DNA of 64,000 nt from NCBI RefSeq assembly GCF_024437735.1, contig NZ_JANFQO010000013.1, positions 62,001-126,000 on the forward strand. The letters are read 5' to 3'. Positions 33,720-37,347 of this stretch are shown piece after piece. Position 1 is the stretch's first letter. Every line of letters starts with the position of its first letter. Origin of the DNA: Tahibacter harae. GTDB lineage: Bacteria; Pseudomonadota; Gammaproteobacteria; Xanthomonadales; Rhodanobacteraceae. Both the position numbers and the translations under genes were made by a program. The notes under the pieces are model-generated. The model saw only the letters and a program-made list of their open reading frames with translations. It made no database searches and had not been told where the DNA came from.

Positions 33720-34868
33720 TCAGCGCTTTCCGGCCGCCTCGCAATTCACCCGCAGCTTGAGCGCCTTGGCAATATCCCGCCAATCGAACGCTCCCACCGC
33801 CTGGTCGTCATGCACGGCATAGAACACGCCGTCCGGGAAGCGTTTCGTGCCGGCCTGGTGCAGCCAGATGCCGTCGGTATTGGCCACGGTGGCGCCGGCG
33901 AAGGCGCCGAGGTGCTCCAGGCTATTGCGGTCGTAGACGTGGAACAGGGAGCGGTCCTTGAACTGGTCGGTGGCGATCCAGTAGCCGCTGCCGTCGCTGC
34001 ATTGCCACAGGGTCAGGCCCTCGGCCTGGGCCCTGAACAGGCCCAGGCCTATGCTGCGGCCGCGGAAGCGACCATCGAGGTCGTATTCGCGCACGGCGGT
34101 GCCGGTGGCGGTGTCTTCCTCGGCGATCAGCAGGCGGTCGTGGGCGCTGTCGCCCCAGATCGATTCCGGGATGCGGATTGCGCCGGCTTCGCCGGTATCG
34201 CCGATGCTGCTGTCGAAACGGGCTTCAAGCCTGGTGCCGACGCTGACGCTGTAGCGGCGAACGCGCTTGTCCAGCTGGGCCAGCGGCGGCACCACGTCGT
34301 CGCCCTTGGCGTCCTTGCCGGCCATGTAGGCGTCGCTGATGAAGACGTCGAAGCGCTGCGGGCCCAGGCGGCGCAGCCAGATGCCGTACGGCTGCTGCAG
34401 TTCGTGCGGGCCGAAGGAGCCCAGCGGCTGGAATTCCGGCAGGCGCAGCACCTGCACGCGGCGGTTATCGCGCTCGACCACGAACACCAGGTCGTCGACG
34501 ACGAAGATGCCGTTGGGACGGTCGAATTCGCCGGCGCCCTTGCCGGCCTTGCCGCGCACGCCCAGCGCGGCGCCGCTGTCGCCATCGTAGGTCATCAGCC
34601 GGCCCGTGGCCTTGGCGGTGGCCAGCAGCAGGGGCTTGCCGTCGGGGCTCATCCACAATGCGGGAGAGTCCACATTGTCCTGCGGCGTGGCCGGCGTGAC
34701 GAAGGCTTCGCGCAGGCTGGCGTGGGCGATGCCGGCCGTGGCCAGCCGGGGTTCGGCCGCGGCCTGCTCGTCGGGTTCGCGCTCCACGGTCTGCCGGGTG
34801 GCACAGCCGCCGGCGAGGACGGCTGTCAGGCCCAGGACGAGCAGCGCGCGAAAGCGGGAAGAGAGCAT
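33720..34868 (-). CDS. Beta-propeller phytase-like lipoprotein
   Basis: 382 residues with a lipoprotein signal (VLGLTAVLAGGC, Cys22). The mature protein resembles beta-propeller phytase: DNVDSPALWMSPDGKPLLLATAKATGRLMTYD, PNGIFVVDDLVFVVERDNRRVQVLRLP, ESIWGDSAHDRLLIAEED, EGLTLWQCSDGSGYWIATDQ and NTDGIWL. Such enzymes release phosphate from myo-inositol hexakisphosphate with calcium. A TonB-dependent receptor starts 148 bases away on the other strand, a pairing known for these phytases, which supports a substrate-capture and phosphate-release role at the outer membrane. A Pho-box-like element lies between them. Individual calcium ligands were not checked. Confidence 0.8.
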   Translation of the reverse strand: MLSSRFRALLVLGLTAVLAGGCATRQTVEREPDEQAAAEPRLATAGIAHASLREAFVTPATPQDNVDSPALWMSPDGKPLLLATAKATGRLMTYDGDSGAALGVRGKAGKGAGEFDRPNGIFVVDDLVFVVERDNRRVQVLRLPEFQPLGSFGPHELQQPYGIWLRRLGPQRFDVFISDAYMAGKDAKGDDVVPPLAQLDKRVRRYSVSVGTRLEARFDSSIGDTGEAGAIRIPESIWGDSAHDRLLIAEEDTATGTAVREYDLDGRFRGRSIGLGLFRAQAEGLTLWQCSDGSGYWIATDQFKDRSLFHVYDRNSLEHLGAFAGATVANTDGIWLHQAGTKRFPDGVFYAVHDDQAVGAFDWRDIAKALKLRVNCEAAGKR

Positions 34869-34937
34869 GGGCGGTTTCCAGGTTGGCGGGAGACGGCGCT
34901 TCTAGCATGCCTTGATTGCGCATTCCTGGCGACTGCG

Positions 34938-34993
34938 TGACAGGGCGGCCGAAAACTCCCTGTCATCGCCGCGCCATGCAGCCTGATTAAAAA
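34938..34993 (+). promoter_or_regulatory. Pho-box-like promoter of the TonB receptor gene
   Basis: CTGTCAT (34960-34966), four bases, then GCGCCAT (34971-34977, 4 of 7 to CTGTCAT), matches PhoB half-site geometry (7-4-7). Exactly 10 bases downstream is TAAAAA (34988-34993), a reasonable -10, and the receptor ATG is at 35017. TGACAGGG (34938-34945) and CCCTGTCA (34958-34965) also form a perfect 8-bp inverted repeat, so a CTGTCAC half-site faces the phytase gene too, although its second half-site (TCGCCAG) and -10 are weak. Confidence 0.5.
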
Positions 34994-35016
34994 GCCGTGC
35001 TTTTCAGGGAGTGGAC

Positions 35017-37347
35017 ATGAAGAAGCACGTGCTTGCACTGGCCCTGCTGCAGGCCCTGTCCGGCTTCGCCGCCAGCGGCGCCGTCCTGGCCGGAGGCAGC
35101 GCCGAAGCGCAGCCGGATGCGGCGCCGGTCACGGAGCTGGACAAGGTCCTGGTCACCGGCGAGATCACCTATCGCGACCGCGCCGACGAGATCGCGCCGG
35201 TGCTGGCTTATGACCTGGAGTTCTTCCAGCGCTTCGAGCCGCGCACGGTCGGCGACATGCTCAAGCGCGTGCCCAGCGTGGCCTTCGTGTCCGACGTGCT
35301 GGAATACGACGGCGCGCGCCTGCGCGGCCTGGATCCGGGCTATACCCAGATCCTGATCAACGGCAAGAAAGTGCCGGGCGGCGGCGACGACCGTTCCTTC
35401 TTCGTCGACCGCATTCCGGCCGAAGTGGTCGAGCGCATCGAGATCGTGCGCAGCGCCAGCGCCAACCGTTCCGGCGATGCCGTCGCCGGCGCCATCAACA
35501 TCGTGCTGCGCGACGCTTACGAATTCGACGGCGGCTATCTGCGCGCCGGCGTTTCGCATTTCGACGACGGCGAGAACAAGCCCACCGCCGCCGCCGTGGC
35601 CAGCGGCGAGTTCGCCGGCGGCCGGCTGCTGGCCGGCGTCAGCCACCAGGGCCGCTACAACCCCAAGAGCAAGCTCAGCCTGCGCTATGACGAACCGCGC
35701 GGCGCGTTCGACAACCGCGAGGACCAGAGCGATGTGCGCGACGGCACCGACGATTCGCTCAACCTGTCCTATGCGCGCGAGATCGGCGCGGGCAAGCTGA
35801 ACCTGTCCGGCCTGTACGTGCGCACCGACCGCAGCGAGACTGAGCACTCGCTGGAATACAACGATCGCCGCAGCACTGCGCGCGACAACCTGCTGTCGCT
35901 CAACGACCAGGTCGCCGCTATCCGCCAGCACAATATCGCGGTCAAGGGCGACTACCGCATCGACCACGCCGACGGCGCCCGGACCGCGCTGGATTTCAGC
36001 TACGCGCGCATGAAGGACGCCACGCGCGATGTCGAACAGGAAATCGGCTACGACGATGAAGATACGCCGCCGTCCTTCGACGAGTCCGAAGGCGCGCTGC
36101 AGCTGTCGCGCCTGCGCGACAGCGAACGCGGCATAAGCCTCTCGCACGCTCGCAGCGCCGGCGCGGCGCGCATGGAGTTCGGTCTGGACTACAGCGACAA
36201 GCGGCGCGATTTCCGCCTGGACCTGAGCGAAGTCGACACCGATGAGGAAGGCGCGCCGCTGCCGCCCTACGTCGAGTTCGATACCAGCGCCAGCCGCATC
36301 AGGGAGCGTCGTGCCGACCCTTATCTGATGTTCTCGGGCAAGGGCCGGGCCCTGTCCTGGGAAGCCGGCCTGCGCTACGAGACCACGCGCAGCGAAGTCG
36401 GTGCCGGCGGCGAGCGCCACACGCGCGACTACAAGCTGCCGCTGCCCTCGGCGCATCTGCGCTGGGACCTCGGCGATGCGGACCGCCTGAGCTTCTCGGT
36501 CGCGCGCACCGTGCGCCGGCCCAACTTCAACTACCTGCTGCCGGTGCTGCTGGAAGGCGAATACGGCGACAACGATTTCGTCGGCAATCCGCGCCTGAGC
36601 CTGGAAAAGGCCTGGGGCGTGGATCTGGGCTTCGAGCACCGCCTGGGCAGGCACGGCGTGGTCGGCGTCAATCTGTTCTACCGCGACGTGACCGACCTCA
36701 TCGAGATCAGCAACACCGGCGCCGCCAGCGCCACCGCGCTGGAGGATTTCGAGGACGAGGTTGCCGAATTCCTGGAGGAAAATCCCGGCGCCACCCCGGC
36801 CACGCCGGGCTATCCGGTGCTGGATCCGGACAGCTTCGTCTACACCGCGTCCAACGTCGGCGACGGTCAGGTCTACGGCGTGGAGTTCGACCTGTCCACG
36901 CCGCTGACCGCGCTGAACCTGCCCGACACCGGCGTATTCCTCAACTATTCCTGGCTGGACAGCCGTGTGCGCGACACGCTGGGCCGGCGCCGCTTCAACG
37001 ACCAGGCGCGTTCGGTGCTCAATGTGGGCTTCATCCAGGATCTGCCCGGACTGCAGGCCAGTTTCGGCGTGAGCTACCGGCGCCAGGGCCAGGCGCTGTC
37101 GCGGGTGCTGGCCGAGGAAGTGGAGACCCGCTACGGCGCCGATCTCGAAACCTTCATCGAAAAGCGTTTCGGCACGCAGTGGTCGGTGCGCCTGACCGGC
37201 ACCAACCTGCTGGACGCGTCCAAGGACGAATATTTCCACAAGTTCGACACGCTGGACGATCAGCTCGGCCGCGACTACGACGAATACGAAATCGAGCGCG
37301 AAAAGGCCGGCCCGGTCTACCAGCTGGTCGCGCGCTACGCCTGGTAA
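35017..37347 (+). CDS. TonB-dependent outer-membrane receptor
   Basis: 776 residues. Signal peptide (MKKHVLALALLQALSGFAASGAVLA), then a TonB-box-like ELDKVLVTGEI, a plug domain (VGDMLKRVPSVAF, RLRGLDPGYTQILINGKKVPG, DRIPAEVVERIEIVRSASANRSGDAVAGAINIVLR) and a 22-strand barrel. It ends ...QLVARYAW, an aromatic C-terminal residue as expected for barrel assembly. It imports a scarce ligand using TonB energy. Pairing with the divergent phytase suggests inositol phosphate or a related phosphorylated ligand, by inference. The ATG at 35017 has CAGGGA about 6 bases upstream; a GTG two codons earlier is less well placed. Confidence 0.92.
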   Translation: MKKHVLALALLQALSGFAASGAVLAGGSAEAQPDAAPVTELDKVLVTGEITYRDRADEIAPVLAYDLEFFQRFEPRTVGDMLKRVPSVAFVSDVLEYDGARLRGLDPGYTQILINGKKVPGGGDDRSFFVDRIPAEVVERIEIVRSASANRSGDAVAGAINIVLRDAYEFDGGYLRAGVSHFDDGENKPTAAAVASGEFAGGRLLAGVSHQGRYNPKSKLSLRYDEPRGAFDNREDQSDVRDGTDDSLNLSYAREIGAGKLNLSGLYVRTDRSETEHSLEYNDRRSTARDNLLSLNDQVAAIRQHNIAVKGDYRIDHADGARTALDFSYARMKDATRDVEQEIGYDDEDTPPSFDESEGALQLSRLRDSERGISLSHARSAGAARMEFGLDYSDKRRDFRLDLSEVDTDEEGAPLPPYVEFDTSASRIRERRADPYLMFSGKGRALSWEAGLRYETTRSEVGAGGERHTRDYKLPLPSAHLRWDLGDADRLSFSVARTVRRPNFNYLLPVLLEGEYGDNDFVGNPRLSLEKAWGVDLGFEHRLGRHGVVGVNLFYRDVTDLIEISNTGAASATALEDFEDEVAEFLEENPGATPATPGYPVLDPDSFVYTASNVGDGQVYGVEFDLSTPLTALNLPDTGVFLNYSWLDSRVRDTLGRRRFNDQARSVLNVGFIQDLPGLQASFGVSYRRQGQALSRVLAEEVETRYGADLETFIEKRFGTQWSVRLTGTNLLDASKDEYFHKFDTLDDQLGRDYDEYEIEREKAGPVYQLVARYAW

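Follow-up and report, generated by a model that had tools for sequence, protein, structure and literature searches.

In the window, the 64,000-nucleotide stretch of Tahibacter harae DNA analysed here (G000:C5:62001-126000, from a genome of 5.99 Mb), a gap of 148 base pairs (bp; 34869-35016) separates two divergent genes, encoding a phytase-like lipoprotein on the minus strand and a TonB-dependent receptor on the plus strand. There is strong support for the prediction that this pair forms a phosphate-starvation module driven by PhoB-type promoters: the receptor-facing site is recognized by two matrices, is conserved across the Lysobacterales and occurs in a genome with a true PhoB, and the enzyme has a predicted phytase fold. 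The shared control region is very probably switched on at phosphate shortage. The sites, their spacing and their conservation, the PhoB and PstS of the genome, the fold of the enzyme and the differing partner enzymes of the receptor were all established by computation. The original prediction, made from the letters of this DNA, had proposed a divergent beta-propeller phytase lipoprotein and TonB receptor, and this is borne out by the open reading frames (ORFs), by matches to PF02333, PF07715 and PF00593, and by the phytase fold.

The predicted receptor-facing PhoB box (34960-34977, plus strand) consists of the half-sites CTGTCAT (34960-34966) and GCGCCAT (34971-34977), separated by CGCC and followed after exactly 10 bases by the -10 element TAAAAA (34988-34993), as the original prediction had read it. 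Two matrices were used for scoring. The first was built from 18 Escherichia coli half-sites upstream of phoA, phoB, phoE, pstS, ugpB and phnC, which were selected by likeness to the consensus CTGTCAT rather than from footprints; the -10 frequencies in these scans were textbook-like values. With this matrix and the -10, the site scores 20.4 and ranks first of 127,932 on both strands of the window, with a runner-up at 10.8, while the half-site pair without the -10 ranks third. The second matrix, a Lysobacterales one such as the original prediction had proposed for scoring, was derived from pstS promoters and contains 84 half-sites from 21 of 27 loci, six poorly fitting loci having been dropped (L109, L120, L122, L126, L130 and L131). 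With the -10, the site again comes out at the top of the 127,932 positions, with a runner-up at 15.4. The layout of a PhoB-activated promoter is therefore borne out, as a prediction, by two matrices and by conservation across the Lysobacterales. The strict pattern TGTCAYN5CGCCATN10TANAA was found once in 200 Lysobacterales genomes, at this site, and its reversed control also once; this precise sequence is therefore uncommon, and the sampled relatives carry variants that escape the strict pattern. In the own genome, TGTCATN5YGYCAT with at most one mismatch gave 35 matches compared with 9 for the control, and one of the two exact matches is this site.

Relatives of the phytase were found in 73 loci of named genomes, three of which are cut by contig ends. 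In 64 of these loci (27 divergent and 37 co-directional), a TonB receptor is present upstream; the best receptor match ends about 1 kb away in L054 and L058 and within 0.5 kb in the others. Together with further relatives, and with the window included, 32 distinct divergent loci were compared. The receptor-facing box ranks first or second within its locus in 31 of the 32 (E. coli matrix with the -10), and the phytase-facing box ranks first to third in 26. The half-sites, whose lack of conservation in orthologous intergenic regions would have spoken against the proposal, are conserved. On the receptor side, a repeat period of 11 is the best (31 loci; periods of 8-10 or 12-15 give at most 16), as is a -10 distance of 10 (31 loci; other values from 4 to 16 give at most 27, with 27 at a distance of 8). 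When the columns of the matrix were permuted, all 100 versions fell short of 31 loci (6.9 on average, 29 at most), and a reversal of the matrix left 2.

Scoring of the co-directional loci covered 36 of the 37, with L093, whose contig is cut, excluded; in 30 of them the box ranks first to third. Four loci counted as misses (L071, L078, L079 and L083, ranks 13-66) probably have a wrong automated receptor start, and an alternative start in L078 and L079 reveals GTGTCAT-N4-ATGAAAC-N10-TACCGT. The box is also missed in L080 (rank 10) and L058 (rank 15). In Xanthomonas, the phytase follows, co-directionally, a different class of receptor, which has only weak BLAST similarity to the receptor of the window (24-31% identity). 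Here, the box is mostly ATGTCAT-N4-GTGAAAC-N10-TAGTGT, 68 bases ahead of the receptor, and it ranks first to third upstream of the receptor in 26 of 27 loci, L080 being the miss. In these loci (L056:2365-4926 and 26 others, with domains taken from L056), the receptor varies rather than the enzyme, and the Pho box is pstS-like.

One protein of the own genome passes the equivalog cut-off for PhoB (358 bits) and shares 60% identity with E. coli PhoB. In the stretch VYVEERTVDVHIRRLRK, which we take to be the recognition helix, a single residue differs from the E. coli sequence VYVEDRTVDVHIRRLRK, a change from D to E. The promoter of the own pstS gene (G000:C23:55968) contains four half-sites in an 11-bp register, with TACAAA after 10 bases, and many pstS promoters of the group (L105-L131) fit four half-sites spaced by 11 bp with a -10-like hexamer after 10 bases. 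In E. coli MG1655, a clear direct repeat of the 7-4-7 type, followed by 10 bases and a -10, was observed in three of seven upstream regions, those of phoA, phoE and ugpB. The hexamer of phoE is TAAAAA, at the same distance as in the window, and pstS also has TATAAC at the place of the -10. No clean 7-4-7-10 site was seen in the upstream regions of yjdN and phnC.

The receptor is present in 49 of 398 Lysobacterales genomes, the own genome included, and the 49 receptor loci studied came from 48 other genomes and from G003. The enzyme beside the receptor is a small phytase in 40 loci, a long phytase in one (L179), an alkaline phosphatase in three (L180, L181 and L221) and a pyrophosphatase in two, and none was found in three. 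In these three (L230, L234 and L250), no phosphatase was seen among the chosen frames scanned (19 frames across the five loci with neither phytase nor alkaline phosphatase), which does not prove its absence. The receptor-facing box ranks first to third in 47 of the 49 loci and first in 33, and 45 of the 47 counted boxes are situated 53-140 bases ahead of the estimated start of the receptor. With 150 column-permuted matrices, 10.9 loci were reached on average and 37 at most. The half-site pair alone gives 43 loci and the -10 alone 9, and a period of 11 gives 47 compared with at most 22 at other periods. On the receptor tree, the alkaline phosphatase label needs three changes, the pyrophosphatase label two and the small phytase label nine, seven of which are forced by well-supported branches. 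Shuffled labels need roughly as many changes, so the type of partner is not clustered on the tree.

Several of these loci illustrate the differing partners. In L247:6671-7366 and L244:3211-3849, a divergent inorganic pyrophosphatase (assigned in L244 by 75% identity) takes the place of the phytase opposite the receptor, and that of L247 carries a stretch read as a likely signal peptide. In L180:4742-8476 and L181:6664-10310, the partner of the receptor orthologue is a PF00245 alkaline phosphatase, whose gene is divergent in one locus and lies downstream in the other, and L180 has a strong box towards the alkaline phosphatase (21.1, rank 1). A same-genus genome without a small-phytase match (L179:6705-13194) contains a Pho-box-like site ahead of the receptor gene, followed in order by a long phytase of 621 amino acids, a CHAD-domain protein and a PstS paralogue, which is preceded by its own Pho-box-like site. 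Relatives thus keep the receptor and its predicted switch while the adjoining phosphatase sometimes differs. The feature that these enzymes are predicted to have in common is the release of phosphate, not phytate, and as the neighbouring enzymes vary, the receptor seems connected with phosphorus and not just with phytate. The proposed use of inositol phosphates fits the phytase but possibly describes the receptor too narrowly; orthologues of the latter are also found beside alkaline phosphatase or pyrophosphatase.

The enzyme itself (33720-34868, minus strand, 382 amino acids) is a small beta-propeller phytase-like lipoprotein with a lipobox, LAGGC, recognized by eye. PF02333 matches with 35.3 bits (cut-off 21) in the C-terminal half only, at profile positions 206-333 of 375, and for the N-terminal half the best-scoring match is to NHL repeats. 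In an AlphaFold2 model (pLDDT 90.5), the nearest solved fold is the Bacillus phytase 1poo, with a Z score of 33.2 over 290 residues at 2.6 Å. The top three structure matches are all phytases (Z 33.1-33.2, 290-291 residues), followed by NHL domains at 30.5. In the C-terminal half, the only part compared, E235, E250/E251, E283 and D332 align with the phytase chain 3amr, and these acidic residues are presumably the calcium and phosphate ligands of a beta-propeller phytase. E235, E251, E283 and D332 are invariant in 30 aligned sequences; L037, L071 and L083, with a stop in the stretch, were excluded from this alignment, as were L038 and L041, which have no such stop. A phytase fold is supported by the model, and the protein can be regarded as a predicted phytase.

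Towards the phytase, the box reads CTGTCAC-GCAG-TCGCCAG-GAAT-GCGCAAT, which gives three half-sites spaced by 11 bp, followed after 10 bases by TAGAAG. On the minus strand, the distal half-site CTGTCAC lies at 34937-34943, in register with two weak proximal half-sites (34915-34932), and the -10 element at 34899-34904. The three half-sites with the -10 rank second (E. coli half-sites) or fourth (pstS half-sites) of 127,910. Stronger versions of the proximal half-sites are found in L003/L032 and L004/L100: in the same register, L003 has CTTTCAT, TTGCCAG and CCGTCAT, then TAAAAG, and L004 has ATGTCAC, CTGCCAA and CTGTCAT, then TACAAG. By this comparison, the proximal half-sites of the window appear worn and the box weaker than in its nearest relatives; therefore, control of the phytase may be weaker in this genome. 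The perfect inverted repeat that had been noticed, TGACAGGG (34938-34945) and CCCTGTCA (34958-34965) with 12 bases in between (34938-34965 in all), is present, and its arm does provide a half-site towards the phytase, but the box of which that half-site is part is weak here. The repeat is best read from its sequence context as the outermost half-sites of two opposed boxes, not as a single operator. That it would be one dyad operator, through which a dimeric regulator acts on both genes, is exceedingly improbable: its arms are perfect over 8 bp, but as a spaced dyad it shows no conservation across the relatives, where the distance and pairing of the arms shift while each 11-bp register persists. 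This candidate was therefore rejected.

Taken together, the full explanation, in which we have high confidence, is that of two opposite PhoB promoters, import through the receptor, an exported phytase and uptake by Pst. The 148-bp gap would bear two promoters in opposite orientation, both activated by PhoB. When phosphate is limiting, PhoB in its phosphorylated form would bind to the half-sites spaced by 11 bp, which replace the -35 box and lie 10 bases upstream of each -10, and would turn on the TonB-dependent outer-membrane receptor on one side and, on the other, the phytase, an exported lipoprotein. The receptor would probably carry phytate or other phosphorylated compounds across the outer membrane, the enzyme would release phosphate, and the Pst system would then take it in. 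We infer the binding of PhoB, the induction, the substrate of the receptor and the order of import before hydrolysis; PhoB-driven import of phosphate esters, then hydrolysis, then Pst uptake is the most economical mechanism.

Control of the pair by a different regulator of the OmpR family, with a TGTCA-like direct repeat of 11 bp, is improbable. The PhoB model does find 106 matches in the own genome at E ≤ 0.001, many of which are other response regulators, and the recurrent second half-site CGCCAT deviates from the E. coli consensus. However, the matrix derived from E. coli PhoB sites finds the receptor-side sites in 31 of 32 loci by itself, the half-site CTGTCAT/C and the period recur in the group's pstS promoters, mostly together with a -10-like hexamer at the same distance, and the Xanthomonas loci use the pstS-like half-site TGAAAC. 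It is also conceivable, though rather unlikely, that the pair is phosphate-controlled while the receptor imports, for example, a metal that has been released from phytate or is bound to it, and the enzyme acts outside the cell, a reading compatible with the promoter part of the explanation given above. Phytate chelates metals, and the enzyme, as a lipoprotein by its lipobox, could face outwards. Against such metal import, receptor orthologues adjoin a pyrophosphatase or an alkaline phosphatase, whose common trait is phosphate release, and in one genome the receptor orthologue is followed by genes for phytase, a CHAD protein and PstS. For the PhoB-controlled import of phosphorylated compounds, a broader form can be proposed tentatively and with more doubt than belief: the receptor may import highly charged phosphate compounds in general (phytate, pyrophosphate and possibly polyphosphate), which it hands to whichever exported phosphohydrolase the lineage has acquired, with hydrolysis after import. 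If true, one fixed PhoB-driven importer would be combined with interchangeable enzymes.

Several observations weigh against the explanation by PhoB promoters, or limit it. Without the -10, the pstS matrix places the receptor-facing half-site pair only 16th in the window, and the second receptor-facing half-site of the relatives is often CGCCAT instead of TGTCAT. Towards the phytase, the pair in the correct register ranks 2625th in the window with the E. coli matrix, or 161st with its -10, and the distal pair 16th, or 25th with a -10; in the divergent loci, one permuted matrix (mean 4.5) also reaches 26 on this side. One divergent locus, L089, is missed on the receptor side, and in L004/L255 the top site sits one repeat upstream of the site that fits the -10. 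Among the 49 receptor loci, L221 (rank 25) and L244 (rank 4) are missed, two counted boxes are implausibly placed (L230 at -305 and L248 at -22), and a -10 distance of 8 gives 45 loci, compared with 47 at a distance of 10. The pairing of the genes is not strict either: six of the 73 phytase loci, with at least 3.3 kb of upstream sequence, have no receptor there. Among 99 relatives, the receptor (E 1e-100) is present in 12, accompanied in nine of them by a phytase match below E 1e-70; such a match occurs in 21 of the 99 genomes, and 12 of these lack this receptor, some of them from groups that use another receptor. Finally, the loci share ancestry and the set of 49 overlaps that of 32, so the counts are not independent events.

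The receptor gene (35017-37347, plus strand) encodes 776 amino acids with plug and barrel domains (PF07715 and PF00593), and its orthologues in the Lysobacterales are 50-80% identical. Its ORF is also open from a GTG at 35011, the listed start; the ATG at 35017 is the likelier one, preceded by AGGGAG (35006-35011), a likely ribosome-binding site. Among the direct neighbours of the pair, no SusD-type gene was found, and the immediate flanks are an Mg-chelatase-like gene of the ComM/YifB type and XdhC. Among the named relatives, the closest phytases are those of Tahibacter (72%, and 77% over a partial stretch) and of a Lysobacterales metagenome-assembled genome (72%), and a plasmid search with the phytase gave zero matches. 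A phytase-receptor locus of Lysobacterales type is also present on a contig (L044) assigned to the cyanobacterium Tolypothrix campylonemoides, probably through contamination. An attempt to derive a genome-wide Pho regulon from the 35 pattern matches gave little yield: 28 of the 30 examined lie inside at least one ORF of at least 90 amino acids, many of which may be spurious frames in this G+C-rich genome, the exceptions being the site of the window and L167. In a further search, one of four exact matches was the pstS promoter. Around position 1500 of L154, also in the own genome, CTGTCAT-GGAA-TTGTCAG-N10-TTAACT lies about 70 bases before a frame resembling an ABC-transporter ATPase, with no visible link to phosphate.

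To our knowledge, it is poorly understood how large charged phosphate esters such as phytate get through the outer membrane. A receptor lineage that mostly keeps a PhoB-type promoter beside different phosphatases would offer a direct handle on this passage, with one importer that can be compared across phytate, pyrophosphate and phosphomonoesters. In addition, a well-supported description of the Pho box in the Lysobacterales is provided.

Related systems are known from other bacteria. In the parts of the literature accessible to the search, which did not extend to most subscription journals, no report of a PhoB-controlled phytase-receptor pair in the Lysobacterales was recognized. According to the sections consulted of a study on Flavobacterium johnsoniae, phosphate depletion induces a TonB transporter beside a 3-phytase (Fjoh_1368), as well as PusCD systems beside PhoA and phosphodiesterases (PMC8115612). 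These PUS systems share with the pair of the window a phosphate-controlled TonB transporter (control being predicted here) beside a phytase or PhoA-type phosphatase; in contrast to them, the pair has no SusD-type gene directly beside it, belongs to another phylum and represents one receptor lineage with several types of enzyme. The PhoB regulon of Caulobacter crescentus likewise includes various TonB receptors and a phytase, whose adjacency is not stated in the part of the source consulted (PMC11208175). For Xanthomonas oryzae, PhyA is described as a secreted phytase that allows phytate to serve as a phosphate source (Chatterjee 2003, as cited in PMC9403785). The Xanthomonas orthologues of the window's phytase, which may include PhyA itself, are 55-60% identical to it and are paired co-directionally with another receptor class. 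The predicted enzyme shares its propeller fold with the Bacillus beta-propeller phytase (1poo and 3amr; Z 33), with the acidic motifs aligned, but differs from it in an identity of about 21%, in an N-terminal half that best matches NHL repeats and in being a lipoprotein. Similarly, the promoters have the same direct repeat, 10-base spacing and -10 as those of E. coli phoA, phoE and ugpB, with TAAAAA also in phoE, whereas the Lysobacterales loci often carry CGCCAT for TGTCAT and place two boxes back to back.

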